Positions 8,221 through 63,100 of a stretch of DNA of 64,000 bases are shown here, piece by piece. Within the stretch, counting starts at the first letter, position 1. The number at the start of each line of letters is the position of its first letter. A program made the position numbers and the translations under genes. The notes beneath the pieces were generated by a model. It saw only the letters and a list, made by a program, of their open reading frames with translations. It did no database searches and was not told where the DNA came from. Source of the DNA: Paragonimus westermani (Eukaryota > Platyhelminthes > Trematoda > Plagiorchiida > Troglotrematidae); assembly GCA_008508345.1 (NCBI GenBank), contig QNGE01000846.1, positions 45,565 to 109,564 on the forward strand. The letters run 5' to 3'.

Positions 8221-8305
8221 AGTTAGTGGCACAGTGATCAGTATGGTTGTCTCTTGAAAGCGTGGCCGGAATTCTGGTCCAGGCTGTGGCAAGAATATAC
8301 TCTTA
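8221..8305 (+). mobile_element. SINE copy, tRNA-like head only
   Basis: Plus-strand fragment of the hammerhead SINE family. It contains the A-box-like tggcacagtga near 8226, the segment ggttgtctcttgaaagcgtg, and the degenerate B-box region ggccggaattctggtcc. It ends soon after gtggcaagaatatac, just before the point where the ribozyme begins in the full copies. The ribozyme and tail are missing. Confidence 0.65.
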
Positions 8306-8780
8306 ATTTTTATGTTAAATGCTTAGTTATTTTGGTTTCTAATGGTAATTGGATTTACTTGAAAGACAAACAAAATGAATTAATCTCGGAGGCTTTTCTC
8401 CATACAGTATTCCATTCTGTAAACAAGTCATACTACTTCGCAGAACTACAATTGTTAACAACCTAGACATACCGGATTGCCACAGTTAAGTCAGTTTTCC
8501 CTCTCACTCACACTGGTGTATGGTCGGACTTAGTGGTAGGTCAAGTTCTTCGTCAACTGGATGACATCATAGTCGACGTGTTGTTTACAAATTATGGCAC
8601 GCGACGATAGCAAGCGTGATTATCTGATTTTCGGTGCCATTACTCATCGGGAATTCCCTCAGCATCCGTTTCATGCGCACTGACCTACCAAGCTAAATGG
8701 TTCGCCAAACTTGGTAGTTTGAATGGTTACTAGAACATAATTAGTATGAATGGAAGCTCCCTCTAGCCTACAACGACTGG
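8306..8780. other. nothing recognised
   Basis: AT-rich spacer between a SINE head and a PLE 3' end. A 70-codon open frame at 8254-8466 overlaps the SINE and has no recognisable domain. Confidence 0.35.
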
Positions 8781-9167
8781 ATGCCGTATTTAAATGAATT
8801 AGTTGCCTCAGTGGTGTTGGTGACGGAGGTTTGTGTAATTATAGTTTCTGTAATTACCACAAGACGATGGTCTGATATAGTGCGTAAAAACCTTCTTGTG
8901 TGGTTGACCAGTGCGATTAAAACAGATTTAGGCGCGATTTGTACTCATTTGACCGAATCTAATCATTCTGTCATTAAGAAAGTTGCCTTGCAGATTGTCT
9001 GTCAGGGGCCAAAGAATCGAGCAAAATGGCTGAGATTCCGAATATTGCCCCCTGCCGAAGGCATTAGCATCCAATTGCGCAGCCCTGACCTCTGTGCTCA
9101 GAAGTTCATGCGGACAGTTAATCTCCCTTGGCCCACAATCAAGCAAGCCCACGATTTTCAAGAGTGA
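8781..9167 (+). mobile_element. Penelope-like element, GIY-YIG endonuclease C-terminus
   Basis: A 128-codon open frame carries the C-terminal part of the PLE GIY-YIG endonuclease. From about residue 30 it aligns with the copies at 52.5 and 59.2 kb: HLTESNHSVIKK, then QIVCQGPKNRAKWLRFR, then the EA-I-LR-P-LC-QK region read as EGISIQLRSPDLCAQKFM, and the terminal NLPWP. The first half (the YIGRT-RRLSDR block) is replaced by a frame-damaged segment, so the enzyme is not functional. It is followed by a tail shared with two other PLE copies in the window. Confidence 0.82.
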
Positions 9168-18334: not shown

Positions 18335-18440
18335 CCACTAGACTAGAGTTTCGCTTCTTTTCAAAAGAGGCTGGCTGGAAAGACTTTCTGAATGCGAAGG
18401 CTGCGATCAAATTTGAGTGATGGTCAACTTGAAAATAAAC
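18335..18440 (+). mobile_element. SINE copy, 3' half only
   Basis: Plus-strand fragment matching the part of the SINE after the ribozyme. The segment actagagtttcgcttctttt begins it. It continues through ggctggctggaaagactttc and ends in the family tail gtcaacttgaaaataaac near 18437. The tRNA-like head and the hammerhead are missing. Confidence 0.65.
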
Positions 18441-22085: not shown

Positions 22086-22443
22086 TGTCAGATAATATCA
22101 AGAAGGAGAGTTTTACTAGATAGGTAATGATAGTTATAGAAGAAATTAAATACTGTGCAGTAATAGAACAAAATTCGTAATAATCGTTTACTACCCACAG
22201 CAGAGACTAATGAGGTCAAATTTAAGATCGGCTTTTTACAAACAAACCAAATAGACCTCAACGAATTCACCGCTCCGGATCATACCAAATAAAGACGACA
22301 AACGTATCTGACAAGCTTCAACGTATCTAGCACCACACCCCAAAAGTCACTCAAGCTTTCTATAAAACTTACGAATACCATTGGAGAACAAAGCGCTGAA
22401 AAACATAGAACAGCTCTTCACATACCAAAATTAATTTCTGACA
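22086..22443 (-). repeat. BEL/Pao 3' long terminal repeat
   Basis: Proposed 358-bp LTR at the 3' end of the minus-strand BEL/Pao element. On the minus strand it begins TGTCAGA (22443-22437) and ends TCTGACA (22092-22086), a perfect 7-bp inverted terminus of the TG...CA type. A purine-rich tract, GGAAGGGCG, lies directly before it and can serve as the plus-strand primer. The pol frame runs about 12 bases into the LTR before its TAA stop. A matching 5' LTR was not found, so the boundary rests on termini and position only. Confidence 0.65.
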
Positions 22444-25400
22444 CGCCCTTCCAGAAGACACAACGACCTTATATCACGCTTCACAAAACCTTCTGGTGGT
22501 TTCACGAATACTTGTCTTACGTGATTATTTAATACTGGAGATGCATTAGTTACTACTCCTTTCGACCAGGCACCCCGATCAGTTGGCGTGTCACAAAGGA
22601 GGAAGACGCCCCCTAATTGCAAATCACGTGAGGTAGTGAACCATTTATGGTAAGCTTGCAGCCCAGGCAGGTATTCACTTCGCCAGTTTCCAAAATACGC
22701 AAGCGAGATATTGGGCTTGGCCTCAACCCTTAGTGTAGCGCTTTGATAATGAGAAACCCAATTCGACCGAAGCAATAACAGATCGCTCGGTCTCAGTAGT
22801 TTCGGAGTTTGGGGATTATCATAGACGGGTGCAAGCGGACGATTCTTAATTAATCGCTCCATCTCTACCATGTAAGTGAGCAGTTCCTCTTTATTCCTAG
22901 CCTGCTGGAAGTGACAGAAGTAATTACCCGCCGGATAGTTCTTATCACTCTTTCCCGTATTCTACCTCGAAGGCTGGCTTCAGGTGAGTTTAAATGCCAG
23001 TTAATTTTGCGAAGTAGCAAACAGTCAGCAATCTTTCTTTGGTCCAAAGCTTGGAGCTTCCTCTTCAGCTCTGAATTTGCTCCTACAAAGTTGGTGCCGT
23101 TGTCGCTGTGTATGGCATCCGGAGCTCTTCGTCTACCGACATATATAATAAGTGCCATCGTGAACGAATTAGTAGACAGTGAATGAGCAACCTCCAAATA
23201 GATAGCACAGGTCTGAAAACAAGTAAACACACAGTCGTAACGTTCGTATTTGCTGCTGCCTATCTTGACCCTGAAGGGACCAAATTAGTCCACTCCAGTA
23301 TACTGGAGTGGATACCCGTCAGCAGTCACTCTACTTATTGGTAGTGGAGCCATTAACTGTTCACATGGCTTAGAAAACTGTAATCTACATTATTAGTACT
23401 TACTAATCGTGCGCCTAACAGTCATAATCCCTTTTAACACCCGGAATTTCGTCCAAATGGATGCAAGTACATATGTGGCACCCATGTGACCTTCCATCTC
23501 GTGGTAATGCCTAACTATAAACTCTGTGACTGTGCCGTGTGATGGTAAAATAACAGGCCTTGTATCTTCTTTGTCAGAGCCACTACTTGCTTTCCCCCCA
23601 CGACGCAATAAGCCGTTTAGTGGTACTGGTCTCAACCGGGACAGATGATCTATACGTCTCTTGTCAATGGGTTTAGCCTTGAGATATTTCATGTCGTCTG
23701 AAAACCATTGTTCCTGATCACGCGTGATCAACTTATTTGTAGCTCGTTCCAGTTCGACTAAACTAAGTGGCCTTGACTTCACCGGATCTCCTTGGCTCCC
23801 AGACTTTAGTGAGCAACCGAACCTAGAGAAGCCTGATAGTCATGCCACTGCCTTCACTAATTTCAACCAATTTGAATATCATGGTACCAGAAAGTCTAAA
23901 ATGGGATTCAGCGCAGTCACAGTCTCAACAGCTAAAACATGCCTAGCCTCGCAGTTCTTGTTCGTCAGTGCAACTTGAGAAAGTGATAACTTTGGCCAAC
24001 TGCTTTCTGAAAACTCTAGAAGCTCCGGTCCCTGAAGTCAATGATCAATCTCATGGGAAAATGAATGTGAAACTCCTCTCGATGCCACGTCGACCGGGTT
24101 CAGCTCGGATGGCACATGTCTCCACGGTGATATAGTGATATACTCACGTATTAATCTCACTCGGTTCGCAACAAATATAGCAAAGCGCGACATGGTATTC
24201 TGAATATATTGCAGTACTATCACTGAGTCCGTCCACAAAAATACGCGGTCGATACGTATTCTCAGTTTGTCCACAAGGAGCCGCATCATTCTTGCTGCGA
24301 GGACGGCCGCCGTGAGTTCAAGTCTCGGGATAGTAATTTGTTTTACTTAGAGCCACCATTGATGTGCCTAGAATGATTGAGCACTTAACCAAACCGCTCG
24401 AAGCTGTTAGCCGAATACAATCAAATTCACCGTATCCTATCTGAAATACATCACAAAATAAGTGCAATTTTTTCCCCGGAGAAACACACTGAGGCACTCA
24501 AGTTGATTCAAAAGACCGAATGTTCGTCAGCCAATTCTTCCAGTTTTGACTATGGGTCTCTTCTATTAAACTATCCCAACCAAGACGCCGATCACAAACG
24601 TTTTGCAGCTGCTTACGAGTTTGAATTAAAATTGGATCAACCACTCCCAAATGGTCTTATAAGAAAGCAACGCACCTCAATATACCCCTCCTAGTGTAAG
24701 ACGTATCCTCAAGGTGCACTTGAAACTGAAAGTAATTATTTATTACTTCCCACGTCACACCCAAGGCTCCTTGGTTGTCGAAAACCCCTAGGTCTAGGTT
24801 AATCATTTTGTACAGTCTATCCTCTAAGGGTACATGTTCGACAACCTCGGAGCTATTAAATGTCCACTTTGTAAGATGAAACCTCTTCTGTGACAGGGCG
24901 CGAAGTTCGTCTACCACAGAAACAGCCTTCTCAATCGTCTCGACCGATAACTAGTAGTCATCCACATAGAAGTTCTTCTTTATAGCTGATAGTGTTGAGG
25001 GCATCAAATCCTGTGCATGATCAGTAGCCACTCGTTAAGGAGCAAAGTTTGTACAGAACGGTGAAGAAGTGGCACCAAAGGGTAAACATTCAACTCATAT
25101 ACCTCAGGAGGTTCATCCAATGAAGGTGAGCTCCACCACAGGAAACTCAAAGCCCACCTGTCATATTCCGGAACCTAAACCTGCAGAACATTTTCTCAGT
25201 ATCCGCCGTGATGGCTGTTGGATGCTTACGAAAATGGAACAGCACTCCAACAAGATTTTGAGTTAAATCAGACCTTTGCAGCAGAATATGGTTAAGAGAC
25301 ACTCCTTGACACACACCAGTGCAATCAAACATTATTTACACTTTATCCAGATTATTCCGGTTAAGTACTGGATGATGTGGTAGATACCATCGTCTGTCAC

Positions 25401-39446: not shown

Positions 39447-42217
39447 TGGTTTTATTTTGCTAGATCTGTGCATAAAGCTAACTTGTGACTTAATTATATA
39501 TCTCAATAATTCCTCATCAGGTTTAATCATGAGCAAGATGGATTTTGTCCGAGATGTTCACCTTACTGTTTCCATCTCTGACAGTGTCGGACAGATTTCA
39601 AGTCTTAGGAATGTTTTCTGCATGACCACTGGAGTGTTGTTACAATCCTTAAGGTACATGCTGCGTAATGCTTCTTAACTCCCAAGTCTTTTTTGCACAG
39701 CAGATTGCCTTTTTGAGGTTTATTTTCTGCAGACAGCGCTGTTCTAGCAACATGACCCTCTGCCCACTTGTTCACCGAAATCTGTCTCTCAGTGCAAGGT
39801 GGGGATTATCTCTGAACAAGAATGTTGAATATCCTGTATCATCTTCAAAAACCTCCACCAAACTTTTCACGGACAATTATTTTAACTTCCGCATCCTGGA
39901 CAACATAAAAAGCTATTTGCTTGATCCGGTTGATTATGAACTTCGAAAGGACTGTGGCCTTCCCAAGTCGTTTGTTCACATCCTGATGCGGATATTGATA
40001 ACCAAGTAGCTTGTTGTTGAATTCTCGTCACAAACCAACTAACAGGAATTACCATATGATTAGCTTCTTATCAGGTGTGCATAAGCCCCAGTGATGTTAT
40101 GGGTAAACATGTGCGTGTGTATGATTAGCTGCCTCACATATGGTACCTGGTTGGTTGTGGCCATAGGTGAAAGAAGCAAACCGTCCATGCCCAGGTCTGT
40201 TAATGTAACGTATCAGTTGTCATCACTACTCACCTTGTCGAATCTGTACACTTTGAACCCTCCTGTACTCGTGCGAATCAGAAGAGGAATTTAGGGCCTT
40301 CACACTACCTGCAGACTTGTTGACTGATATTGATTGAAAAACACGTACATTTGTTCACAAGTAAATTTTGGATGTCAGGCCACGAGCGACATACTTCAAC
40401 TCCAGTCACATCAAGTCTAAATGATCGAAATTCAATGAACCATCCGGATCAATTACTTGTCTACGGAGAGCAATACTTCTTCCTTTAACCAACAGCCCTT
40501 TGCTTTGGTGGACAGTCGTGACCACTCATCATCAATGTGACTACGTTCGGGCTATCTATGCTGTCAACCACACAGCTACCTCCCTATCCCCTCGTTGGTG
40601 ATACCGACCAGTGGACAGACCGACACATTCTCAAGCTGCTCCGCAAAAGTCCATTTACTCTCACCGTTTTCCCAGGCCTGGCCTACAAATCCGGACAAGT
40701 TAAGTCAGATTTTTGTTGCTAAGTTATTTTTTTGTTGTTCACTGAAAAGACGAGAAAACAGCGTTATCAGTCGAACGAATCCAATACACCAATTACGGAC
40801 TTTTTAAGCACAAGTTAACTCTTCTGTCTAGAAGAAGATAAGCCGGAAACGTTGGAAGTATCAGTTTCCAAGGTGAGACAACAATTCTGTGTACAAATCA
40901 ATCGTGTAATTAAAAATGCGGAAAAGATATGATATGAAGGAGACCATGGTTGTGAGTGCAAGACAACCAGATAGGTTAAGCGTCATCTAATTACTGCGTT
41001 TGTTATTAAGTGGGATGAATTAAACGATTGCGATGCGGGCCGTCAGAATAAACGTTGTTTGCATACTTGTTTTGAGTGTATCTGCCCTTTGTGTGGATGA
41101 GCGTTGGGTACAATTCACTTCAGATAGAGATGTCTAACTAGACTAAACTAAAATATGCATACGAACCAGTTCATTTCACACGGGAAACTGGGACCTTAAC
41201 CTAGTCTCTTCATATCCCAGTTAGTTGATTTGTTTGAATGATGACAGGAAGAGAGATGACAACAAAATTAACAAACCGACGATATACAAACAGTAATAGC
41301 GATCCATTTGTTGGAGAGGCATATGTCGACTTGAGCATCGGTGAGAAATTTTTCCATGAAGAAACAATCTTATGGGAATTGGCAAAATAAAATGTCTTTG
41401 GAAATTTAAGTGATGGAGACAAGTGTTAATGGAATTATCCTCATTGTCATTGGTTAAACTACTATATCTAATCAATGATAAACCCAAGTAGGCGTTGTAT
41501 CAGTTGACACTTGTCAAGAGGTCACCAGACAAAATGTGATCAATCCTGCCAACCTAGCCAGTGCAACCGGAAAGTAGAATAATTTCAAACTTACCAAAAT
41601 CTTAACGGGCAGTACTTGAAGGCACGGATTTAAGTCATGTTGAATTATTTAACTGCACTTTGGGAATTTATTTGGACCTACACAGACAAATTAATGTTTC
41701 CCATCTTCTGGGTAGAAAAAGTACGCTCAGCTGATAGTTTCTGAAATTTCGACAGCCGAAGAACCTGTTGGGGTTACTCCGTTGCTGACAGTTTCACTAA
41801 CCAGTGGAGGGACGTTTTTAACGAGACATTCTTCTGTGTGCTTATAATTAAAAATCATTTGCAATCTCTATAATAAACAGAGTTAGTTTATTGTATGACC
41901 TTCTGTTTGATATTCAGTCTGTTATACAAAACGTTTCAGTCTGTGGAAAATCTCCACGATTTGTTTGTGTGTTAGCGCTTGTATTTCACACAAACTTATA
42001 TCTCAATTGTCTGAATTACTATTTATGTAGAAGGATTATGCGAAAGTTAATCTACTACTCATCAGTAATCTAAAATATCGCCTTGCAGGTTTAATGAGAT
42101 CAGTGATTTCGACCTGTCTTGGATGTCCTGATCGCTGGGTAGTCGGTTGGAGCTAACAGGACAGTTTCTGTGTCTTCTCTCGAGGCAATCGGACAACCTG
42201 ATCATTGCTCACAAGCC
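39447..42217. other. no recognised gene; possible exon-like frames near 39.7-40.8 kb
   Basis: Plus-strand open frames at 39457-39678, 39668-40009, 40091-40294 and 40537-40722 follow each other, but none has a recognisable domain. The frame at 40537-40722 ends in a segment (DRHILKLLRKSPFTLTVFP) faintly like the last helix and strand of a PDZ domain, with a possible donor near 40705. This is weak and not annotated as a gene. Confidence 0.25.
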
Positions 42218-42461
42218 AGAGTGGTTGTGCGTTAGGATTTGATAATTTGGTCGTGCCTAATGTGAGGTCAATGACGCAGTGGTCAACACGGTTGCCTCAT
42301 GATTGGAATGGCCGGATTTCATATCCCTGTAGTGGCAAGAATATGCACTACTGACGAGCTATAATCACAGCGAAACTCGAGTCTAGTGCTTCTTTTCGAA
42401 AGTCTATCTGATTGCAAAGCTTGCGAGCAAGTGTGAGTGATGTTCAACTTGAGGAAAAAAA
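42218..42461 (+). mobile_element. tRNA-related SINE with hammerhead ribozyme (best copy)
   Basis: Most complete copy of the window's SINE family. The head carries an A-box-like tgacgcagtgg (42272-42282) and a B-box-like ggatttcatatccc (about 42314-42327), spaced as in a tRNA gene, so Pol III transcription is plausible. A hammerhead ribozyme follows at 42345-42389. Next is the body (gtctatctgattgcaaag) and the tail gtgagtgatgttcaacttga, followed by an A-rich stretch. Other copies lie at 5950 (-), 8221 (+), 18335 (+), 54890 (-), 55206 (+), 58416 (+) and 59905 (-). A SINE with this arrangement (Sm-alpha) is known in schistosomes. Whether this family is homologous is not established here. Confidence 0.82.
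42345..42389 (+). ncRNA. hammerhead ribozyme in SINE
   Basis: 45-nt hammerhead. Stem I is a perfect 6 bp: gcacta (42345-42350) with tagtgc (42384-42389). The first catalytic box is CTGACGA (42351-42357); position 7, the C, is the freely variable base. Stem II is gct (42358-42360) with agc (42369-42371), closing an 8-nt loop. The second box GAAA is at 42372-42375. Stem III is the palindrome ACTCGAGT (42375-42382), and the cleavage base is C at 42383. All conserved core bases are present. Stem III has almost no loop, as in known metazoan retroelement hammerheads that cleave poorly as monomers and better as dimers. Confidence 0.85.
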
Positions 42462-43015
42462 CAAGTTAACCTGGATTTTACACGTAAGCGGCATATATTT
42501 TTCACAAAAACCACTTAATCCGGTTCACAATTAATAGGCTGAGGTGGCATAACACTGATTCAAAACAACTAAGTCTGAGCAACCTGTGATTCAAACTTGT
42601 GGGCAGTTTTCCAAACGGTACTGTTGAAACTTATCTACCAGATCAGGAGTTAAGGATCATCGAACTTGTGAGAAGGCTTACGACAAACATAATTCATCCG
42701 CTAAAACTCTGTTTGAGAATCACTTGCTTTCCGGTAAAGCCATTAACTGCCGTCTCGTGGTCTAATGAATAGTCTTCCAGGTCATCATTCTGATGATCAT
42801 TTACTTATCATGTACATAATTTCATGGCACACATAAAGCTGCACAGATAAAACTGTGTTGAAAAATTAGCGTATTGTTTTGTCTACGTTCACTGTGATCA
42901 AATACACATGAATCACCTTCCGTCAACTATATCTGGGCCTTTGTTATGCGATCGCAACAGAAAAAGAAATGAAGCAGAACAATGGGAACAAAATCAGCTC
43001 TGTTAACAATCCACT
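42462..43015. other. nothing recognised
   Basis: Spacer downstream of the SINE with no supported feature. Confidence 0.35.
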
Positions 43016-43237: not shown

Positions 43238-46200
43238 TAAACCGTTAACCTCAACGAAACACTCTCCGACCGGACCACAGACATGGATGCAACGGGTGTT
43301 CGTCGACCGGCGTCCAGTTATTTATTATGCACCCAGTTAGTATTTTTCTGGGTCTCATGATTAACGGGTTTAGTCATCGGTGTAAGCTAATGGTACACTA
43401 TCACAAAAGTCAACCAAGTAACTTCCGAGATGTTTTACTGTGTTCATCTTTTAATGGACACAGAAATTCTCAAATTGATTGATCATATTTCCAGAAAACT
43501 TATGAGCAGGAAGAATAATGTAATACAGAATTTCATAAATATTGTCGTTATTCACACGAATTTCCATTGATCGTAGTTACACCTTCCTTGTTCAAATATA
43601 CTAGTCATCAAACTTGAGGTAGGACTTTATCATAATTTGCCAGCAGTCAATACCATCGTCATGACCACGAGTTGAGTTTTGTGAGGGAAATATGTTGACC
43701 ATTGGGACTTCGATGTCAACTGAAGGAAGGCCAAATTATATTGACTAAAAGATCACCCACGTCCATTCATATGTAAAGGTCAGTTTACCCAACAACTAGA
43801 ACGGTGAGTTCATGGATCACTTATCATGCTCACAAGCATCGGTTTAGTCATTCTGGTACCAGTGAATCTAGGTATCTTTGTGTGGTGATTATCCTATCAG
43901 ACGGCGAAAGAGTGTGCAATCACTGATGTAGGCTGTCAGCACGCACCGAGTGGTTATGCGTAATTGAACAAGAGTCTCATAGTTCGATAATGATTATTAC
44001 ATGAATATTTCCGTCTGCTCGTTTTGCGTCTACAGCTGAAGCAACTGTATTTCGCTACTACGCTTACGGTCGTCTTATACACGCGACCTTTAAGTTTCAG
44101 AGGGATGCTTCTCAATCATCAAAGATAACAAGTGTAATAGGCACTACCGTTTTTCACACATTAGCCTACAAATTACGTAGTCACTCGTTTGAGACCGGTT
44201 GCTTCGGATAGACTTTTACAATTTTAGAAGGACTGACAATTTCATACAGTTCCTGTGTTCTGGGTGGTGAGAGGGGGGAAACGATCAGTCCCCTCCTTTC
44301 ACGACATCCCATGCACCAGAATGTGTATGTATCAAGTGCTTCAATCTTAACTAACTGTATGAGTTAACTAACCTTATTTTGTAAGTCCAGCCAAGGTTTC
44401 AGCTGATGAATCGGTGGCTGGGGTAGCAAAGATACCTGCACTTGAGTTTGGAGAGAACTCTGTGTGACAATTCACAGTGGATCGTTCTAACTTTGGCGAC
44501 CTCACTGGTCCACGGAGTAATGTCGGCTTGATGACATTACTTGAAGTGGCTACACAAGAATGTGGTGATTCTGGTTGGTGATTCATTCGATTATCTGAAA
44601 ATTTACAAGTTATGCAAAGCCCACATTTTTAGTCTGCCGTGAATGTGAGCTTCACCGTTAACAGAAAGGTATGCTGAAAAGAGTTCACTGATGTGATTAG
44701 GGGGAGTAAGTGAACATAAGTGTGCACTAATTAGAAGGTAGAAATCACATCTGAAATGAAACATAACCGCTTTATTTGATACACATGATTAGCACTTCAC
44801 TATGCAGTGAAACAAAAAACCGGCGGCAAAATGTGATTACTGAGTATAGTTGCATTCCACTGTAAAGATTCCAGCTGCCAAGCTGTCAAAAATGTCGCGA
44901 TTGTGTACTGTGTGTAATGGTATGTTCTGAATAAAAGGATGTTTTGATAACAGCGGTATGGTAGGTTATTCTTCAATCAAGTCAATTCTGGCATATTGTC
45001 ATCTCATAGCAACTCGGTTTGATGTAAATGTCATATACAAATACTATTATTGACAATGTATTAGGAATTATTAAGTTGGCTTACGTTGTCCTGGAATTGT
45101 GTTGGAATTAGGCATAACAAAAGCGATTTCAAGAGACTCTCTTCACTTGTCCGACTACTAAAACATAAATAGAAACAACCTAGTTTGGTTCTGCAAACAA
45201 ATTCGTTCATACAACTGACTGTTAACAAAGTGAACGATGTTACTTTCTATGATAATCCCAGGCCCGTTGCAGATGCTGACAGAGTACTTTCCACCCGGTG
45301 CGTAATTCTGTTGGCGTATTGCACAGAAATTAATCTACTTCGATAATGTGCCCAAAGTCTAGTACATTCTTTCTGGTTTACCCTTATATCTATCGCATGC
45401 AACGTTCAAGAACCATTGTTGCAACTGTTCACGTACAAACACACGCACACAATGTGTCAGTGTACACGAAGGTTTATCAGGAAGTGCTGAACAGACAGAA
45501 CGTCTACGTGCGTAGTTGACATATTAATAATGTTAGGTGTTGATGGCTATTTTTGAAAGGTCGCCACCTTTCAGAACGAAATCAAAAGCAGAACTTGTGG
45601 CACGAAATAAATCCAAGTTCGTTGAGTTCTTAATAGTTATTTTAGAGACAAACTATACCAGTGAAACAAAGAAATGGAACTGGTGCTGACGCCTTAGCTC
45701 GGCTTGGTTTCTAGCTCCATTGTTTTAACGCGGGACGTACCAAACTTGTTTCACTCTGATGTTCGTAACATATCTGATGTCAATGAAACGTGCTATCCTG
45801 ATTGGTCACCGCGCTGACATACCAGTGTGCTCACATTATCGACAGTGATTGGCCGTGGCTTTCTATGAATCGCCGGTTGACTTCGTATCGATGCGTTTGT
45901 TCAACCCAATTTCTTTACACCTATGATCCGGCGCTACTTGTCGCTAAGAAAACTGAATGACATACGACGATGCATGGGTACGCCATGAATATTTGTTTTA
46001 ACTGTATTGTTTTCCGTGTTAAGGTGCGCATAATTTAACAAGTCTAGGTGCATATTCTGAAATTTCTCAGTAAGAAACACAAATGCCAAATGTTACTATG
46101 CAGCCAATGAATTGATATTGCGGGTAAGATCAACTAGCCTGAAACTGTACAAAGAATCCAAATTTTCAAACGTTGGATCCAGAGAAACGCACAGGTTACA

Positions 46201-49665: not shown

Positions 49666-51608
49666 TCCCGGTTTGCTGCGTCACAAATGTTCACCCCAGA
49701 GGGGAAAAGCCATATTCTGGTCCTTGAAGAGAGACTGCGCGAATTCAGCTGCCAAACTTTAATCTTGGGTACAGAAGTCTGCTGTTCATGAGCTTGAGTT
49801 GATACGGTCCACTACAGTTCAAACAACTGGTATGACACCACAGTTACCGTGTCCGTAATAACTAAATGACAGTAGATTTACACTTCATTACGGTACGCAA
49901 AATCATAGCTTGACAATTACTCGTACACCTTTTATTTTATAATCGATTTGAATATATCAGCGATGAGCAGTGTGTCTACTGTATTTTAACCCGTCACTAA
50001 ATCTTTGTTTGTATCAGAACAATTTTACAAGATCTACCTTGTCAGCTAAACTTTGTAAATCGAAATAGTATTAACGGTGTAACATTTTCATGGGTTTACT
50101 TATAGTTGGTCTAACATAAAATCCCCGATAGACCAGGTAAGCCATTTTGAAAGCTGGGATCTCGTTGTAGAAATGATGAGCCTTAATGAACGAATGTTTT
50201 GGGTCATTTAGACGAGCGGTGCCTATGAATGAATTACGGATGGAAGGTCGACCGTGCGTCAACTGAGCCTCCATCGTGATATGCTAAGTGAGGGGCGTGA
50301 CTATTGCTAGTAGTAAGTGGTCTAGGGATGATCAAATGGGGGTTTGGTTGGTTTGAACTAAACACCACACACTTGTAAGTACAGCTATCACCTCTACCTG
50401 TTTGACTGCCTTTATGTTCGTCACTAGCGCATACCCTAACCACGACCGAAATTTTCACTGCGACCAAACGTCTATGAGGCTGCTGTATCGAGACAAGTTG
50501 GTAACTTGTTCGATATTCACATATGAAGATGACTGAGAATTCATATGCACTAATTCAGTCGCGCTTAATTCAAAATCGCTAGTGCGGTGTTCGCCAGAGT
50601 TGTTACTTGAATGCTTAGCGAATAGTGTTGAATGTACCTACTACTAGTAACTCCCAGCGGTAGCGACAGTCAAGTCTGTCGCCTCTCGTTGGATGAAGTT
50701 AAGTAAATTAACTGTGCTTGTGAGTCAGCTGCGATCAAACGCGTGTGACGTTCCGTTCAAATGCATTTGATTGCTGGTGAATTCGTAAGATTGTCACGTT
50801 TCTGCGATTCTCTAATTCACACGATTTGTGTCTTTTTCAGTCATCATGCCTCCCCTCACCAACTGGAAGTAATTATTACGCCAGCTTGATTACGCCCGTC
50901 AGTATGTCAGTTTTAGCAATCCTCTTGTTTGCCATACGTTTCTGAACCTACCGGCAACTGAACATCAGCACCTAGTCAGGTAGTCAGTGTGACCAAATTC
51001 TGAACTACACAATTTCTTTGATAATTTTTTTCTAAGTGGCTCGTGGAAAGGCTATATCTTTGTTACCGTTCATACCACACTTTGTTCTTAGTATCGTTTG
51101 TTAAGATTACTGCTCGTTAATGTCACTTTTGAATATGAAGACACGTTTCATTGAGGAAGCTTCAACCGCATAAAAACTTGACTACTTAAACAATCAATTG
51201 TAAGCAATCATCTCGGTCTCGCCTGAAAGCATTAGAAAACAAATAACCAGATGAACAACTCTCGGGTCACTTGTTGAGGTGCTCTCCTACTCATATTCTA
51301 GTTTTGTAGTGAGACACATGCAAATAAGGAGTGCAAGAAGGAACATGAATTGTAGATTGTACACAATCTACCACACCTGCGGAGCATCAAACAACATAAG
51401 GAGAAAATTACGTTCACGTTACAGTCAACACAGTGTTCAGGTTTTTTTTCGTACATACTTAGATCACATACCGGTGATACTCAATGTGATATGTAGAAAA
51501 TGATATAGGTCACAGTTTAAATTTACTTAAAATGCTGACTTGGTTTCGGAATTTTTTCACGGTGTTTGCGGTAGATAACAGCCCGTAACTCACCGGTTTT
51601 ATGATCAT
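49666..51608. other. no recognised gene
   Basis: Nothing coding is supported. The LINE 3'-UTR core cttgtgagtcagc occurs near 50718, perhaps a short remnant. Confidence 0.35.
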
Positions 51609-51775: not shown

Positions 51776-51979
51776 CCTTCTGTCAGGGGAGTTTTCACCT
51801 GCCATTTCTCTTCCTTTGGTCCGACTCAGTTGAGCGATTGGTCATCCGGTCTTCCCACGCTGTCCCCGATCTACTAGCTGTGGGCTTTCTGACGTACCTC
51901 TCGGCCGCGTTGAGGTATTCGGCAGAGAGTTGAAGTACCCGCACCTCCGGTTAGATAACCCACCACAGTATGATAAACC

Positions 51980-52804
51980 ACACGTCGTGAGGACGGTACG
52001 ATACAACGTAAGGTATATGGTAAAGCAACTTGGACAGGACAGTATACAAATTTTAATAGGTTTTTACCTTTGAGACAAAAGAAAAGTCTAGTCCGATGTT
52101 TGCTAGATAGGGCCGTGAGAATTTGCTCAGATGACACCATAGAGGAAGAAAAACAGTTTATATCTAACACACTCCTTGAAACTGGCTACCCAGAACAGTT
52201 TATTTGTAAGCACATGATAGTTAGCACAAAGATAGGTGTGCCTCAAACTGTAGACAAAAAACCTGTCTATATTACTTTGCCTTTCAAAGGCAATAGTAAT
52301 GCTGAACATATAACCAGGAAACTCAACTTGGTGCTTAACAAAACCCATTTCGCAACTCAATTACGTATTCGGTTTACACCCACACCAGTTTTGCGTCCCC
52401 AGTTGAAAGATGTATTGCCTGTACATGTTGCCTCTTTTTGTGTTTACCGTTTCGTTTGATCCTGTGGAACAAGCTACATAGGCCGCACAATAAGGCGACT
52501 ATCTGAACGTATGCGGGAGCATCATCCGACGTGGCTAGCTCGAGAATCGATCAAGGTTTGTTCATCAGCTGTTGATACTCATTTGGTGGAACCCAATCAT
52601 CTGATCAACCCCACCCATTCGTTCAAGCCTATATATCGAGTCGGTGGAGCGCAATCAAAGTGGGTCAAAGGTCGTCCACTAGCTTTTGCAGAAGCCATCG
52701 CAATCCGCTTACATTCGCCTCCGTTATGCTCACAAAAACGTCTGGTCAAAACACTGAACCTTCCGTGGCCCTGTATTGATAGCCCGGATCGATCTGTTAC
52801 ATAA
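51980..52804 (+). mobile_element. Penelope-like element, RT thumb plus GIY-YIG endonuclease, one stop
   Basis: Best preserved PLE coding stretch. In a single frame from 51986 it reads REDGTIQRKVYGKATWTGQY (RT VYRKPTWTGQY motif), then FLPLRQKKSLVRCLLDRA and YPEQFICKHM of the thumb. The linker TPTPVLRPQLKDVLPVH follows, then the GIY-YIG domain: CVYRFV, a TGA stop at 52457-52459, SCGTSYIGRTIRRLSERM, EHHPTWL, and near the end FAEAIAIRLHSPPLC with NLPWP. The stop stands where relatives have cysteine (CSCG). Apart from it the frame is open to 52804. The RT palm upstream is missing, so the copy is 5'-truncated. The nuclease would nick DNA during PLE integration. Confidence 0.88.
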
Positions 52805-53010
52805 GAGTACCGATTTTCCGAAAACCGTTTACAACCCAATTCACTGGTGCCACATAACTAGATTTCACGAGTTTGAATAACTGAACGTTAATCATCACCA
52901 TCCCTCAACCCACGGATATACTACCCCTAGCGAACCCATGTAAATATGTTGTATTTAGCCTGATGATGAAGCACTGAAAACAAGCTTGTTTGCTACGCGT
53001 TTTTTCTCAT
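52805..53010 (+). repeat. PLE 3' tail
   Basis: Follows the GIY-YIG frame. 52950-52998 aligns with the tails at 9255-9305 (+) and 59017-58969 (-), and includes the hammerhead-like motif. Confidence 0.7.
52956..52995 (+). ncRNA. hammerhead-like motif in PLE tail
   Basis: Stem I tagc (52956-52959) pairs with gcta (52992-52995). CTGATGA is at 52960-52966 and GAAA at 52976-52979. Stem III is formed by the palindrome aacaagcttgtt. The cleavage base is T rather than the preferred C. Stem II (tgaagcact) barely pairs. Both catalytic boxes are intact, but weak stem II and the T make activity doubtful. Confidence 0.5.
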
Positions 53011-54889: not shown

Positions 54890-55139
54890 CTTCAAGCTGA
54901 GTACGACTTAAATTTAATTGCGGCCTTTGCACTCTGGTAAACTTTCCAGACGGTATATTCTTGAAAGAAGCACTAGACTCAAATTTCGTTCACGCTAGAG
55001 CTCGTCAGAGGTTCACAGCCCTGTCACAGACGGGATTAGAACTCCGGCAACGCTTTCATGAGACAATCGTATTGATCACCACGTCATCGACCTCACTTTC
55101 GGCAAGACCGAATTACCATGTCTGAACGCTCAACCACTT
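54890..55139 (-). mobile_element. SINE copy with partly decayed hammerhead
   Basis: Minus-strand near-complete SINE. The 5' end near 55139 shares with the 42.2-kb copy the leader (agtggttgagcgttcagac region) and gaggtcgatgacg. The B-box region (gttctaatcccg) lies near 55040. The ribozyme region is 55014-54970, and the tail is near 54890. It faces the plus-strand SINE fragment that starts near 55206, forming a head-to-head pair. Confidence 0.72.
54970..55014 (-). ncRNA. hammerhead in SINE, stem I damaged
   Basis: Keeps CTGACGA (55008-55002), GAAA and the GTC-type cleavage site before tagtgc. The 5' strand of stem I has diverged and no longer pairs well. In stem II the fourth pair is C-G where the 42-kb copy has an A-C mismatch and the 60-kb copy has G-U, which fits a conserved stem. 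Probably inactive. Confidence 0.6.
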
Positions 55140-55205
55140 TTGCACATGAATACTCGTCAGTTTGCCAGGTCGTCTCATTAGGGGACAGTTACCCTTAAAA
55201 AATTT

Positions 55206-55355
55206 GGTCGAAGTTCTATTCTGACCGTAGCAAGGATATGCACTAACGACAAGCTATAAGGGGAAACAAAACTCAAATCCAAAGTTTTGTTTTGAAGGAA
55301 GCTTGCTGGAAAGTTCAACAGCAGTGATTACCTGTGAGTGATGCTCAACCTGAAA
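55206..55355 (+). mobile_element. SINE copy, ribozyme to tail
   Basis: Plus-strand copy aligned from gtagcaaggatatgcacta through the body (gcttgctggaaagttcaaca) to the tail gtgagtgatgctcaacctga. The ribozyme boxes are lost: the CUGANGA position reads ACGACAA. The head is not convincing. Confidence 0.65.
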
Positions 55356-57683
55356 TTCATCAAACTTCCCATTGCTACCAAACGACATCAAAATATCCAT
55401 TTCCCATTGCAAAGTATGATGTTAGTATCAAACCAGTTGCGCTCGAGTGACCTTCGCTGCGTCCATATGTGCGACTGACGGAACACAACGTCCCTGGCAC
55501 TATTTCACTCCGAAATGAACCTTTGTTACCTCACACAGAATCACTCATCGTAGTATGTAACCATTTTGTTGGAAGCGCACAAAACATATGCTCATGGCAT
55601 CGATAAAGCCTTAATACTAACTGAACAATTACCAATTTATGTTGAATTGGTTGTGGTTGGAATTTTGCATGTTCGAGACATGTGCACTAAATACCTGTAA
55701 GGACTTCTAGACAAAATATGAAATGGCTGTTTACATTTTCAGTATATAATAAAGTACACGAAGATGGTTGAGTGACACTGGTCCCATCAAAGTTCACGCA
55801 ATGGCCGATTTTCCATCAACTTTATGTAAATTCACAACAGAAACTCGTCGTTTTAAACAGATACCTCCAACCAATTACTCTATTCCAACGCAAAATATGC
55901 AACGAATGAATATAGGATTTTGACTTGGAGCTGAACGGCGTCCACTTAGAGGGCAACGCGAGGTACGGCCGAAGCAATGCAGTCTGTCAAAACGATAGCC
56001 TCATTCACGTCGTTGAATTTTCGATCACAGCTTTTGCCGCCAACTTTCACCAGTTAGCAACATAAAACGCTCCTCCCCACTGTATACCCGTGAACTTTGT
56101 TATACGCATTATCTGACGTTGACTCTCTGCTTTTCATAATCTGGAGCCAAAATTAATGTGTAATTTGGTGATCAGGTGAGCTCAGTTGAATGTCACTGTT
56201 TCAGGAGCTGGTTGTGTCTGAAAGTTTTAGGCAGCGGTGTTGTGAATTTACGGTTCAGTAGTACCATTTGAGTGGGTAACTACAGATGTTGGAATGAAGA
56301 CAACTTGAACTGTCAAAACAACAACAATCATTTGGATATCAAACCTTCGTGCTTCGGAAGACAGTGGACGAAAGCTAGGACAAAAACTTTGAATATAGAC
56401 TATCGAAGGTTATTGTTATTAGCGGGAGAAAATTCGTTGAAAAGGGTGACAACATTGAGTGGATGTAGTGGGAGCTGAAGTTTGGCTTACCTATGTTCTA
56501 GAGAAGTAAACACAAATCGTGTTTCGGTCACAAACGCAGTGTTTTACTGCCGCTGGCGAGGCAATGACAACACCACACGTCGGGAGTTATTCCCCGCACC
56601 ACGTGGTCGTTGCGGTAATAGCCCAGTTGAGTCTTATGCGGATAAAGGTTCCAGGGTTTTCATCTTTGTTCCAAACAACACATCTAAAACAGAATGGACG
56701 GTGACTCTTAACAATACATTGAACCATGATGAAGCCCACAAGAACGGCCACGTAAGCCATCTGTTGTCGATGCATTCAACTGTTTCCTGTGATTGTAATT
56801 TAAATAACACCGTAAGTTAGGAATGCAAATAAATTAGAGGAGATTAAATCTCCCACCAATTTTGCACAGATTGACTGATTGTGCAGAATATGCTATAGTC
56901 GAATAAAAGCACTAGAGTGCGTGTTCTTCCGCTACATAGAGCAAAAATTGCTAGGCAGATCCTTGTCCCTGGTATTTACGCTTGGTACACGAGCATCTCA
57001 ATCACTGCTGCACTGAACTCATCACACATACTTGATCGGATTGTCACACACAAACCCTCAGTCTCCTACCGACAGCAATCAGATTGCTCAATCATTTCTG
57101 GGGACAAACCCGTGCTCAGTGAACCTCAGTCAAGCTGAAGTAACCTACTTTTTGAATTATCAATTGAATCCAAAATGATACTGTTTGAAGTTCTCCACCA
57201 GAAATCCGTTGCTAACATACGGGCACCAGTTAGTATGGTAATAATGCTGATCGATATTTCTCTATTAACACAGTGAGGTTCTTTTGTCGATGAACGAGTA
57301 AGTGAGAGATTTGGTATGTTCTAAGTGGCACCTGTTTTCGAACAGAACACAATTTATATTGGCACTTATTGAAACTTCTTACTGCTGTTAGTGTTATGGC
57401 TTTTGCTAACAAACAACCGTTTTGTCTAGGTTAGACCATGCAACTGGGTGCAACCTAATATACTGTTAGCGAGCACGATACATTTTTATTAACCTACTGA
57501 AAGAGACATGGTTCTCTGCCGTGTATCAGTGCATGGACTTTCGTTGGAACGCCTGCTTCGAAAGAACGCTGTCTTTCAGTATCTCCACGTTGCCCAAAGT
57601 TGATCCACGAGCGTAGCAGATAATCAAGTGGAAACCGGCCAGCTTTCCCTTGTGTGGATAGTGAACAAACGGGTATCGCAGAA
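55356..57683. other. upstream flank of LysM exon; no element recognised
   Basis: About 2.3 kb. Plus-strand frames at 56482-56820 (112 codons) and others show no known domain. Promoter or upstream exons of the LysM gene could lie here, but I see no clear TATA-box, initiator or spliced-leader acceptor to annotate. Confidence 0.35.
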
Positions 57684-58019
57684 ATGGCGGAGACCAAGAA
57701 TTCAAAGAAGAAAAGTGAAGATTTGGCGGTAATCAGGAGAGAAGATCAAGCTGATAGCGTGGAGTCCGCTAGACGGAAACAAAAAACAAGACGAAGGGCA
57801 GGCCGTACCCGACTGGAAGGGATTGAATTGTTGTCGGCACCCACCAAACCATTGGTTGTGAAGCCACAACGGACGATGGAATATAAAGTGCAGCCTGATG
57901 ACACACTTTCCAGCGTAGTTGTTCGATACCAGTCGACACTGTCCGAGTTGTTTCAGGTTAACAGGTTGTTTTGTCGCAGTCTGTTCCCCGGTCAAATCAT
58001 CAAGGTCCCAAAAGCGATC
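57684..58019 (+). CDS. LysM-domain exon, OXR1/NCOA7 (TLDc) family homologue
   Basis: Probable first coding exon of an OXR1/NCOA7-type protein. In animals these proteins act in oxidative-stress resistance and V-ATPase regulation through a C-terminal TLDc domain. The chosen ATG at 57684 has G at -3 and G at +4. Residues 1-45 are polar and strongly basic (KNSKKKSED, RRKQKTRRRAGR). The LysM domain covers residues 65-109: TMEYKVQPDDTLSSVVVRY, ELFQVNRLF and PGQIIKVP. The lead-in VVKPQRTMEY and the NRLF...PGQ...VP pattern point to OXR1/NCOA7 rather than LYSMD proteins. The frame stays open to a TGA at 58125-58127, but homology stops at KVPKAI. A GT at 58020 (ATC|GTATGC) is a possible donor. GRAM-like and TLDc parts were not found downstream in this window. 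No clear polypyrimidine acceptor precedes it, which suits a first exon. Confidence 0.7.
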
Positions 58020-58127
58020 GTATGCGAAGTTCAGAGAAAACTAGTGGGAAATCTTAATCAAGTTGTGTTTGGGCTACTCACATTCATACTTAAAAACAGA
58101 CGAAACCAGATATCTGACCTGATCTGA

Positions 58128-58929: not shown

Positions 58930-59121
58930 AATTCGTTCGAAAATACCCACTGAAGTCATGAGAACGACAAAGTAGCGAACAAGACTTGTTTTCCGTGTTT
59001 GATCATCAGGCTAATTACAACGCAATAAATTTGAAAACAGTGGCTAGTGTCAGTCAGAAAAACTGTCAAGATAGGTTAAGGACGACGTGCTTGTTATAAG
59101 TTACATGATCACTGTTCCAAA
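58930..59121 (-). repeat. PLE 3' tail
   Basis: Minus-strand tail following the GIY-YIG frame at 59122-59490. 59017-58969 aligns with the tails at 9.26 and 52.96 kb. Confidence 0.7.
58973..59013 (-). ncRNA. hammerhead-like motif in PLE tail (best of three)
   Basis: On the minus strand, tagc (59013-59010) pairs with gcta (58976-58973). CTGATGA is at 59009-59003 and GAAA at 58993-58990. Stem III AACAA pairs with UUGUU around a GUC triloop. The cleavage base is C (58977). Both catalytic boxes and the NUH site are intact. Stem II (nine bases, ucaaacacg) has at best one wobble pair, which is the main weakness. Confidence 0.6.
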
Positions 59122-59490
59122 TCATAGGCTTGATTGATTGTGGGACAGGGGAGGTTGTGTCCACACGAACTTCTTCTGAGCGCAGTGGTCAAGGTTGCGC
59201 AATCGGATGCTGATGGCTTCGGCAACGGTCAACATTCGAAATCTCACCATTTTTGATCGATTCCTTGGCACTCGGTAGACAATCCGGAAAGCATCTTTCT
59301 TACTGACAGAATGATTGGAGTCGGTCAAGTGAGCAACACTCGCGCTTGAGACAGTTTTAATCACACCACTGTTCAACCACGCAGGATGGTGTTCACGCAC
59401 TCTGTCCGACAATCGCCTTGTAGTACGACCAATGTATGATGCTCGACACGAGCAAACAAATGATTACACATAATAATTGGTTGTAAAACA
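59122..59490 (-). mobile_element. Penelope-like element, GIY-YIG endonuclease
   Basis: Minus-strand GIY-YIG domain. From 59490: a stop-interrupted start (YYV, stop, SFVCSCRASYIGRTTRRLSD), then VREHHPAWLNSG. Next comes SVAHLTDSNHSVSKK, FRIVYRVPRNRSKMVRFR, then AEAISIRLRNLDHCAQKKF. The YIG motif and the EH-P-W block are intact. The final NLPWP is replaced by a frameshifted end. It belongs to the same subfamily as the 8.8-kb copy and near the 52-kb copy. The reverse transcriptase is absent (5'-truncated). Confidence 0.87.
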
Positions 59491-59824
59491 TGGAGTTTGT
59501 CTTTGGGTTGTGACAAGGTAACTGGTGTATCAGTTTCTATTCAACACGTAAACGCCATCAAGCCCAAATACCGGTAAACCCAAACGACAGAGAACAGCCA
59601 ATCAGACTGCAGCCCAAGGACTCCAAGGAACAACCAGTCGGACATCAGGCCAAAGTTCAATTGCGACAAAATTAACCAATGGTGGGTCAGGTCAAATACG
59701 ACAGAAAGCGACCAACCAGAATTCAGACCAGTAGCTCAACCCACTCTGCTATATAACAGCAGGCATCGATCCAACTTCACCAAACGCCACATTCAAAATT
59801 ATACGCTGAAACACTCACGCACTG
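59491..59824. other. nothing recognised
   Basis: Spacer upstream (in element sense) of the PLE fragment. No RT motifs were seen. Confidence 0.35.
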
Positions 59825-59886: not shown

Positions 59887-59904
59887 TCACTACCAAAACC
59901 AAGA

Positions 59905-60133
59905 GGATTTGGTTCATTTTCAAGTTGTACATCAGTCATATTTTGATCGCAACCTTTGCGTTCAGATAGACGTTCCAGCCAGCCTTTTCCGAAAAGTAGC
60001 ACTAGACTCGAGTTTCACTATGACTACAACTCATCAGAAGTGCCTATTCTTGTCACGGCCGGGATTTGAAATCCGGCCACGTGTTCATGAGACAACCGTG
60101 TTGACCACTGTGCCATTGACCTCGTATTAGGTA
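59905..60133 (-). mobile_element. tRNA-related SINE with hammerhead ribozyme (second good copy)
   Basis: Minus-strand copy. The head has A-box-like tggcacagtggtcaacacgg near 60115 and B-box-like ggatttcaaatcccgg near 60070. The hammerhead is at 60043-59999. The body contains ggctggctggaacgtctatc, and the tail is gatgtacaacttgaaaatga near 59920. The order matches the 42.2-kb copy, in the opposite orientation. Confidence 0.82.
59999..60043 (-). ncRNA. hammerhead ribozyme in SINE
   Basis: 45-nt minus-strand hammerhead. Stem I is gcactt with tagtgc: five pairs, with a U-U mismatch next to the core. The boxes are CTGATGA (60037-60031) and GAAA (60016-60013). Stem II is rich in G-U pairs (guugu with auagu around a 4-nt loop). 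Stem III is the same ACTCGAGT palindrome as at 42 kb, and the cleavage base is C at 60005. All core bases are present. Confidence 0.8.
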
Positions 60134-63100
60134 ACTTGTGACAAATATTTTTCTGCGGAACTCCTCTCAACAGCCATCGTCATATGTATAGAATAATTGT
60201 TAGATATACTTCATTAAGGTTTGCACGCATCGTAACAATTTTCTCACGCGCTGTTATCTTTCTAATAGACAAATGTGTGTTATGGACTGAAAAGACACAC
60301 ACATCAGTAAGTGCATAGTCTGTAATATCTTCATTTTTTCTGCCTACTCTACATAACTAGGTATCCTCTCTTCATCAGCCTTATAAATTTACAGTTGCAC
60401 ATTTAGTGTCCGTTTCAACGTTCATTTGACCTTCCCAGAATCGGAATACTAAAGCACAGTAAGAATGTTGAGAGAATATGGATTACTGTACTAGAGAAGC
60501 TACGGAATGCTGATGATCTGCTTCTGTGTTAACAAAATAGGGGTTTACCCGAACAACAACAATAATCTGAACAAACCTCAAAATTCGTTTCCTTTTCGTG
60601 ACAGGTGACGGTGTATGTAGCCTCCCGGGTAAGTTGTCCACGTAGACACTTCGAATGGTACCAGCCTTGAACCATCACAAAAAGTTCACTGGGTAGCTTA
60701 TCCATTTACGCATCATCATTTCGAGTTATATACAGGCAGCATATTTGCTGTCGTGCAGAGGTCCTAAACTGCACCACTCACCCTTCTGAACCAAGTGTGT
60801 TGTCCCCTAACTTTGAGACAACCCTGTTGGTCAATGCATCTCTCAGACATGAAGACCGTTCGATTTTCCTGACTTCCCCTACAGGAAAGAGTAATTGTCG
60901 TGCTAACTCCACTTGACAACGAAATACACTAAACTAGGTTGAGAGCAAAGAAGTTATTGAACTTGACTATAGCTAACGGACTATCTGGTTAATAAAGTTT
61001 GTCGTCACGTTTCATCGTGGCTTTAGTTTGCGTATGAAATTTCAGGCCAGAATAAATACAAACAGTGAGTATTGCTGCTGTTAGGTCACCTCAGTAGCGC
61101 ACACTGCAGGCCTGGATTCGAGCTTTTTCTGGCAAAATAACTGTTCTTGACGATTCTTTCATGAATTAATACTCCGATTACCTCATTCAGATATCAACGC
61201 TGCGGCTGTGATAAGAGTGACCTCGAAAAAGAACTAGCCCTAAACCGCTGTAAAGGCTAATATGTTCCCTGTTACATAAGAACGGCACTCGTGTGAATGA
61301 ACCAAAGTTCAACGCCTGATCAAATACCAATCAATCTGTAAACATTATGAGATTGTGTGAAATTACCGGTAAGCCGAAAACTGAGGCCTGGACTTGATCA
61401 GCTACATTCTGAAATGAGAAATACTCTAATTTTTGACTGTCATGGTTAACATTTTTATGAGTGTCCGGCAAAAAACCATAATCAGCTTTCTTTTTCAACG
61501 AGTTACACTATAGTTAGTAACGTGGGAAAACAAGGATTGACATAAATTTCATCTTCGATTTAAGAGAATTCAGCCAGGAATCTGATGTTAACCATATGGT
61601 CCATCATCTACAGATGCGACGGTTACATCACCAGTGTTATCAACCAATATCCACTGTAAATTTGTATTTGTGGATAGGGTTGCACCGCTCATAGTGTAAG
61701 CTATTTACTTTAACCGAACATTGCGACTAACATTGATGTTTTTATTCAACTGACCAAACCGAGCGTTCCCTCAGAAAAATCGCTCGTAATCATGACTTAT
61801 TTTCTGTGCTGGCATCTTTTGAAACATCACAGTTACTCAAGCACAAAGTCCTATCCATTGCGGTTGTCTTTCGTTGGCAATCTTTAGAGAAATGAAACTG
61901 GCAAAAACTTTGTAAACTATACTCTCATAACCTTTATCCTGTGGATTTTTGTCTACGTCAGAACACGTCTACTGTTTTGTAGTTCCGAAATTATTTGACT
62001 TTTTCAGGGTGGATGTGTCCCATTTCCCAGCAACATTAGTTTGCTCACCGGTCATGTGAGAATAATGAGAAATATGAGCGGTTCTACTTTCTATAAAGGA
62101 TTATCCAAAAACGTTTTTTATACGTAGAAGCAGATTCTGCAACTCACTTCCTTAGCGATTTTTTTGACGTGCAGGCGAACGTGTTTCTTGATCGTGAAAA
62201 GACATCCCAAATAATTTTGCCGAAATTTCGTAAGTTCGAAATTTCCCTTCAAAAATGCAATGCAATGTTTCCTCTACCCTGGTCAACGAGAAACCGACAA
62301 ACCAACAATCACCCCCACCCCTCATAAAGAAGCCCGTTAACCCAGTGTATCCAGAAGCACTTTTCGATAGTTCTTGGCGAACATTAGCTACTGAAAAGCG
62401 AGCAAACTTCACCATTTTCAGCTCAGCAGTAGCAAAAGCACGTTCATCATAGGGTTCAATTGCTGTATAAATTTATCACTCTCATATTCAGCTTTTTCCG
62501 GACGTCAACTGTGACCTAAACGACAGGTCATCATTCAAAAATCCCATTTTCTCAACAGTAGTCTTGTTGGCACCAGTTAGCCAGTTATCCATGTGGTCAG
62601 CTTAATCAAATCATGAAGCTGCTTTACGAACGAGTTGTATGACTAAATTAACCGCAGATTAACTGTTAAGCAGAATGTGCCATTTTTATTGATTCAATTA
62701 CTCAGCAACTTCCGGAAAAATGACTAGGATTAACAAATATTCTAGCTATATGATAGATCGCCGTAGCAGTGTACGCTCTGGTGAAAGTGTGATGTTCGTT
62801 AACCGGTCTAACGAACGATCCAATTTTATTCTGTGTATAGTACTCAAAAAATATTCAAGCAAATAAAATCAATTGCCTGACGAGCAGCTTCCTTTCACTA
62901 GTGACCTCATTCATGTTCAAGCAAATTAGGGGTTTTCTCCACCTGCAGCGACGACTGGCAAAAAGTTCGGACACACGTTTTGAGACCTCTGCGATACTGA
63001 CGCAGTACGGTTCATTAATGACCCCTTGATAATTCGAGGATTTCTCCTGAGACCAAGTAGGTATAACACATTAACGTGTGACCTCATAAAGGCGCATATG

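Follow-up and report, generated by a model that had tools for sequence, protein, structure and literature searches.

What kind of element carries a hammerhead ribozyme in the trematode Paragonimus westermani, and which machinery inserts it? The question is raised by positions 42345 to 42389 (forward strand) of a 64,000-nt stretch of DNA, hereafter the window, where sequence, Rfam alignment and a structural descriptor all place a type I hammerhead with a predicted cut after 42383. A sequence-only reading of this locus had reported a complete ribozyme with an invariant core, a perfect 6-bp stem I and a 3-bp stem II, and direct inspection bears this out. Stem I pairs GCACTA (42345 to 42350) with TAGTGC (42384 to 42389) without mismatch, the core boxes are CTGACGA (42351 to 42357) and GAAA (42372 to 42375), stem III is ACTCGAGT (42375 to 42382), and C17 lies at 42383. 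Stem II is GCT/AGC, followed by an A·C mismatch and then a U-A pair; the family consensus has five pairs, GCUCU/AGAGC, one of which is lost in the window copy. The earlier description did not include positions 42337 to 42344, where an outer stem I, AAGAA (42337 to 42341), can pair with TTCTT (42390 to 42394) in the same layout as in the HH9 alignment, separated from the inner stem I by a UAU bulge (42342 to 42344) that is a possible partner of loop II.

To judge specificity we used a descriptor that demands the hammerhead core, stems I to III and the cleavage site on either strand, with dinucleotide shuffles as the null. Its sole match in the window was (42351, 42383), and 200 shuffled windows gave one match between them. 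The sequence-only reading had proposed a covariance-model search as its check, and here the outcome was divided. The best Rfam model for the window copy was HH9 at 27 bits (E 0.00017 over 701 bases, 0.016 over the whole window), and in a scan of the whole window no family reached its gathering score, which for HH9 is 52 bits. Young copies elsewhere, however, met the RF00163 (Hammerhead_1) cut-off of 34 at 5 of the 23 different loci scanned, with 34.7 at L015, L016 and L017, 34.8 at L078 and 35.8 twice at L095; L028 stayed below it at 31.4. In one Rfam scan, 12 of 13 loci had a hammerhead match at E 0.01. A weak HH9 match at 2641 to 2709 lacks the CUGA core and was set aside as chance. Folding of the hammerhead interval alone was no better than that of shuffles (z -0.14), and in the stems of 32 divergent old copies 231 of 324 pairs were kept, about what independent decay predicted pair by pair, which gives the stems no support from covariation. 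Among 55 young copies, conservation of the core (0.949), stems (0.960) and flank (0.945) did not differ, a comparison in which the position used for the GAAA box was off by one base; the whole core was kept in 40 of the 55 by a loose pattern, and the most variable core base was N7 (72% C), a free core position. Judged by its sequence, the hammerhead is real and its core complete.

The sequence-only reading also took the palindromic stem III to suggest cleavage as a dimer or multimer. Dimer cleavage does not follow from the palindrome itself, since ACUCGAGU can form a two-pair stem with a tetraloop, an arrangement likened to that of invertebrate hammerheads in the account of PMC7229834, which also gives coral and mussel ribozymes that cleave as monomers at about 0.8 and 0.1 per minute. 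The broader suggestion of multimer cleavage fares better, as genomic multimers of up to 2.5 units fit multimer processing.

The ribozyme belongs to a noncoding, high-copy unit of 432 nt with a GC content of 0.477. We derived the unit from 30 loci found through its head-to-tail junction, which was located in 28 of them; genome searches at the DNA level yielded between 1382 and 3303 candidates each, of which the best 40 were scored. In unit coordinates (u), the A and B boxes are at u244 and u280 and the ribozyme core at u315, with the cut after u347. The sequence-only reading had placed the A/B region at the head of the element, which the map contradicts: about 240 nt of the unit precede that region, and 85 nt follow the cut. 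The window holds a full-length monomeric copy at 42051 to 42462 (+), starting near u18 and stopping at a short 3′ end near u7. The copy is slightly worn, with 42054 to 42462 aligning to u18 through u7 at 87% identity to the young-copy consensus; the start at 42051 is taken from a candidate target-site duplication, AAGTTAA (42044 to 42050 on the left, 42463 to 42469 on the right), read by eye and a candidate only, as flank matches of 7 bp or longer occur in 0.9% of mismatched flanks. Iterated profile searches found about 15 related stretches in the window; a later consensus found 14 there (3.8 kb) and 4 more in loci, 80 kb in all, that had been selected for a different element. The assembly comprises 9701 contigs totalling 823 Mb, and scaling these 18 stretches, from 144 kb, to that length gives on the order of 100,000 genome-wide, mostly fragments, a rough figure from a small sample. 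A 24-base piece had no match among viral contigs. The whole unit is predicted to fold as a self-paired circle (z -2.8). It is a noncoding tandem repeat within the range of about 150 to 450 bp that bears a type I hammerhead, and its target duplications, when present, exceed 4 bp (8 to 12 bp, 15 of 52 insertions). On these sequence features it is an element of the Sm-alpha or animal non-LTR retrozyme kind, noncoding and non-autonomous, which supports the earlier view of a hammerhead housed within a SINE-like element with A and B boxes, for which Sm-alpha is the precedent.

To see how such units enter the genome, we mapped 60 loci (20 + 30 + 10) onto the unit, 30 of the first 50 having been chosen for the tandem junction. 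In these 50 loci, 55 of 73 arms end in one of two 3′ classes about 30 nt apart, a short class at about u2 to u12 (28 of 55) and a long class at about u26 to u42 (27 of 55), and 18 end elsewhere. The 5′ ends vary freely, as in 5′ truncation; of the 55, 50 cross the ribozyme cut and none starts six bases or less from it. Arms longer than 440 nt make up 19 of the 55, a share drawn from loci of which 30 in 50 were selected for the junction; among the 20 loci without that selection, one arm, outside the 55, exceeds unit length (L026, 543 nt). The longest, 910 nt at L071 and 1075 nt at L095, reach up to 2.5 head-to-tail units. The single insertion at L095 contains three hammerheads, with 431 nt from the first to the second, the same spacing as between the two at L071. 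Target duplications of at least 8 bp (8 to 12 bp) flank 15 of 52 insertions, compared with 0.15% of mismatched flanks.

Many insertions are head-to-head composites whose 3′ ends face outward: 18 entries (17 loci, with L022 present twice as mirror copies) and at least seven more. In the main composite and duplication count, segments below 84% identity were left out before grouping. Twelve composites with an unclassified end (seven plus five) were dropped, among them L093 and L086, whose end at u24 narrowly misses the long class; a further 12 could be classified at both outer ends. In 11 of these classifiable 12 (L014, L018, L020, L024, L049, L053, L054, L056, L062, L089 and L090) a short outer end is paired with a long one, the long arm carrying about 30 nt of extra tail. 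The exception is L022, short/short and counted once; adding an old short/short composite in the window at 54891 to 55355 makes the tally 11 of 13. With equal class frequencies, hand arithmetic puts the chance of at least 11 of 12 at about 0.003 and of at least 11 of 13 at about 0.011; for the first ten loci it is 0.011. The whole composite lies within one 12-bp duplication at L014 (by eye; 8 bp by script) and L089, and none was seen at L090. At L022 (G000:C3977:57264-65260), the outermost 1.2 kb of one side recurs in inverted form on the other at 99.9% identity, through either a recent inverted duplication or an assembly palindrome.

Given this architecture, we compared the ribozyme units with the Penelope-like elements (PLEs) of the same genome; the comparison covers these two kinds of insertion. 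In the window, PLE ORF fragments lie at 51977 to 52801 (+), which has a GIY-YIG-like end and represents the proposed class of autonomous partner, at 59158 to 59493 (-; 48% identity to the first) and at 8856 to 9140 (+; 39%). Pfam gave no match for the 51977 to 52801 fragment, which we take to be a PLE from motifs typical of such elements and from its tail structure. PLE fragments are extremely common in the genome, with 19,821 first-look candidates, of which 150 were scored. PLE 3′ ends also fall into two classes, about 25 nt apart, and the head-to-head PLE composites readable at both ends are short/long in 5 of 5 (L082, L083, L084, L085 and L037); L034 and L045, each lacking one end, and L041 and L042, which are the L082 locus, are not in this tally. 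At L082, L085 and L037 the two arms meet to within 8 nt; unaligned gaps of 55 nt and 168 nt separate them at L083 and L084. Target duplications measure 12 bp in L037, 7 bp in L084 and 6 bp in L083, with none in L082 and L085. Endonuclease (EN)-containing PLEs are described, in PMC3846280, as having an adjacent inverted pLTR, target-site duplications of 8 to 10 bp and an optional 31-bp tail on one inverted pLTR. The ribozyme units show the same set of traits, an inverted second arm, an asymmetric tail of about 30 nt and a target duplication, in 11 of 12, or 11 of 13, composites.

The likeness does not extend to sequence. An eye-catching match between the unit tail and the PLE tail was ruled out by a shuffle test, in which 37 of 500 shuffles reached its score, so that the two tails have no significant similarity. 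The PLEs here have a terminal repeat with a hammerhead-like motif; one copy, L079, shows a terminal repeat of 119 nt at 4274 to 4392 and 6945 to 7063 (98% identity between the two). PLE 3′ tails have the hammerhead-like CCTGATGATGAAGCACTGAAAACAAGCTTGTTTGCTA, whose stem III is palindromic and which lacks a clear stem II, in the window at 52960 to 52979 and 58990 to 59009, and a string of the CCTGATGATGAAGCACTGAAAACAAGCTTGTTTGCTA type is present in the tails of many of L029 to L048. In 6 loci Rfam gave this motif no match at E 0.1, and we do not count it as a hammerhead. L079 and L080 belong to a second PLE family with long open frames of 832 and 810 aa.

Because the insertion anatomy, as opposed to the sequence, is shared, PLE machinery probably inserts the ribozyme unit. 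We are fairly confident in the reading as a whole, that the unit is a non-autonomous retroelement of the Sm-alpha/retrozyme kind inserted by the machinery of GIY-YIG PLEs; the ribozyme unit would then stand to PLEs as SINEs stand to LINEs. We propose that transcripts with tandem hammerheads would self-cleave into monomers of about 431 nt, and that the PLE protein would begin reverse transcription on each target strand at its own 3′ site, the two sites lying about 30 nt apart. As a rule two different RNA molecules would be copied, one for each strand, and the truncated cDNAs would be joined head to head. We speculate further that animal hammerhead retrozymes in general are non-autonomous partners of PLEs, with each insertion arising from two RNAs, one per nick, at two 3′ sites about 30 nt apart, and with circles as a side product or reservoir instead of the usual template. 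We hold this wider proposal tentatively, at a little under an even chance.

What RNA was copied bears on a strict retrozyme cycle, in which a single RNA circle, processed by the hammerhead and ligated, is copied round repeatedly to yield head-to-tail cDNA, as in the published model where a primed circle yields tandem cDNA (described in PMC7229834). Head-to-tail arms of up to 1075 nt speak for such a cycle, as do the predicted self-paired fold and the 5′ ends, which avoid the cut while 50 of 55 arms span it. So do private variants at a few loci: consecutive full units share 18 of 20 (90%) at L095 and 5 of 6 to 7 (77%) at L071, and 6 of 9 to 11 are in common at L062. That the units of L095 and L071 share most of their variants means that template variants survive in the copy. 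Against the cycle, among the 18 loci where one arm covers 60 nt or more twice over, only 3 (L062, L071 and L095) have at least half of their variants in common; by hand tally, eight share some (about 10 to 35%) and seven share none (L052, L055, L068, L073, L075, L078 and L090). The low sharing indicates that most of these insertions drew on more than a single RNA molecule; what was copied was usually a second RNA, or else a mixed multimer. Between the two arms of composites, 16% of private variants are in common, compared with a background of 7% between loci. We therefore consider a strict circle unlikely as the general route, though one circle copied repeatedly explains a few insertions, and the others are compatible with template jumping or a mixed multimer transcript.

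Transcription of the unit bears on a second alternative: a classical Pol III SINE with a tRNA head, mobilised by a LINE, in which the hammerhead either rides along as a passenger or serves to process the ends. Features of such a SINE are present, as an A-box-like TGGTCAACACGG lies at 42280 to 42291 (+; consensus u244) and a worn B-box-like ATTTCATATCC at 42316 to 42326 (+), and the consensus B box, AGTTCAAATCC at u280, sits inside a T-arm-like hairpin. Sm-alpha itself is called SINE-like, with A and B boxes, in PMC2576457 and PMC2770079, and Pol III drive by these boxes is stated for schistosome ribozymes in PMC2576457. In the unit here, too, the sequence places A and B boxes ahead of the type I hammerhead, and these could drive Pol III. 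The only run of four T in the consensus unit, however, is a possible Pol III terminator at u357 to u360 (TTTT, 42393 to 42396, +, in the window copy), which starts at the tenth base past the cut and is conserved at 96 to 100% per base in 55 young copies. A Pol III RNA would thus end just past the ribozyme, and a stop there would possibly yield a short ribozyme-tipped RNA. The claim of the sequence-only reading that any Pol III transcript would contain the ribozyme is thereby softened: such a transcript may contain it, but the TTTT follows soon after the cut and insertions extend beyond both transcript ends. The full unit must be the product of a transcript other than a Pol III RNA running from the A box to the TTTT. 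The SINE account also calls for a tRNA-like head at the 5′ end, where the unit has its A/B region some 240 nt in; ARAGORN, run on the window and on 12 loci, found no tRNA, and two-arm, one-tail composites are a PLE trait. Together this makes a LINE-moved SINE improbable.

We attach equally little weight to a third alternative, in which the unit is a solo pLTR, or a deletion derivative, of an undetected PLE that carries unit sequence around its ORF. Minimal hammerheads in the pLTRs of PLEs are published (PMC7761336), and the local PLEs have, as noted, a terminal repeat with a hammerhead-like motif. The local PLE tail is a different sequence, however, and among 23 PLE entries (some overlapping) the unit occurs at four distinct longer places and as one 31-nt match, never on both sides of the ORF, so that none of the PLE loci examined has the unit as a pLTR. 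Nor is the unit itself a PLE, with RT and GIY-YIG ORF between pLTRs, as it is too short for such an ORF. Finally, satellite DNA spread through unequal crossing-over or DNA circles without reverse transcription would account for the head-to-tail arrays, but is scarcely credible given dispersed copies, recurrent 3′ ends, graded 5′ truncation and 8- to 12-bp duplications, all marks of target-primed reverse transcription.

The preferred reading, a retrozyme-like unit inserted by PLE machinery, can be set beside known systems. Sm-alpha and Sj-alpha of schistosomes, as described in PMC2576457, are like the unit in their type I hammerhead, their high-copy noncoding nature, their size of a few hundred bp and their A and B boxes; the W36.2 copy is 335 bp (PMC8490949), compared by description only with the 432 nt here, and over 38,000 hammerhead hits are given for S. 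mansoni (PMC2770079). In the parts of the Sm-alpha literature available to us we found no account of head-to-head tailed composites. With the metazoan non-LTR retrozymes of Cervera and de la Pena (2020), the unit has in common a type I hammerhead, head-to-tail dimers and multimers, GC below 50%, target duplications over 4 bp and a predicted self-paired circle, and its copy number, itself a rough estimate, is of the order of that of axolotl retrozymes. At 432 nt it is longer than their range of about 170 to 400 nt (150 to 450 bp in an earlier survey that they cite). It also has A and B boxes, whereas retrozymes seem promoterless as portrayed in a 2020 review (PMC7761336), which describes no motif betraying their autonomous partner; unlike the retrozymes reviewed there, the unit has an insertion anatomy that points to PLEs. 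Newt and axolotl satellite ribozyme repeats likewise combine a very short stem III with tandem repeats a few hundred bp long; the stem comprises two to three pairs in the unit described here, as against one and two in the two axolotl families, which do better as dimers (according to PMC7229834). The likeness to EN-containing PLEs in the account of PMC3846280 covers the adjacent inverted arm, an optional one-arm tail of about 30 nt, short duplications and partial tandems; the unit differs in lacking an ORF, and it does not significantly resemble the local PLEs in sequence.

In PMC7229834 and PMC11722881 the candidates put forward as movers of animal ribozyme repeats are LINEs or PLEs. We found no report of PLE-type composites for retrozymes in the portions of that literature at hand, and absence of a report is not proof. 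A young, very abundant family with a PLE-type scar of two arms and one tail offers a genomic test of the mover in any retrozyme species, and comparison of private variants is a second test, of the circle-as-template model.

The window holds further copies of the unit, most of them old. A second, 5′-truncated copy lies at 59904 to 60131 (-), with a readable hammerhead core at 60037 to 60005. Seemingly paired changes in stem II of this copy (60013 to 60037) were set aside, as among the best 40 relatives scored the nearest kin has 88% identity and most have 84 to 86%, so that this copy seems to be a worn member of the family. The short/short composite at 54891 to 55355 consists of arms at 54891 to 55187 (-) and 55205 to 55355 (+), and old head-to-head pairs lie at 7997 to 8323 (7997 to 8141, -; 8152 to 8323, +) and 50330 to 50758 (50330 to 50495, -; 50428 to 50758, +). 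An old head-to-tail array of two to three units spans 5595 to 6480 (-), and old degenerate copies occupy 16564 to 16972 (+), 43561 to 43822 (-) and 60851 to 61123 (-), the last found by the unit-consensus search alone; that search also found an old fragment at 17389 to 17563 (+). A 3′ fragment at 18342 to 18444 (+), 94% identical to the consensus, is joined to an inverted ribozyme scrap (18336 to 18355), and the two form a small fold-back at 18334 to 18445.

Two other features of the window were noted. A DUF5641 match at 22431 to 22958 (-; E 1e-14) is presumably the end of a Pao/Bel-type LTR retroelement, and an open frame with a LysM domain at 57624 to 58124 (+; E 8e-10) is likely a host gene exon.
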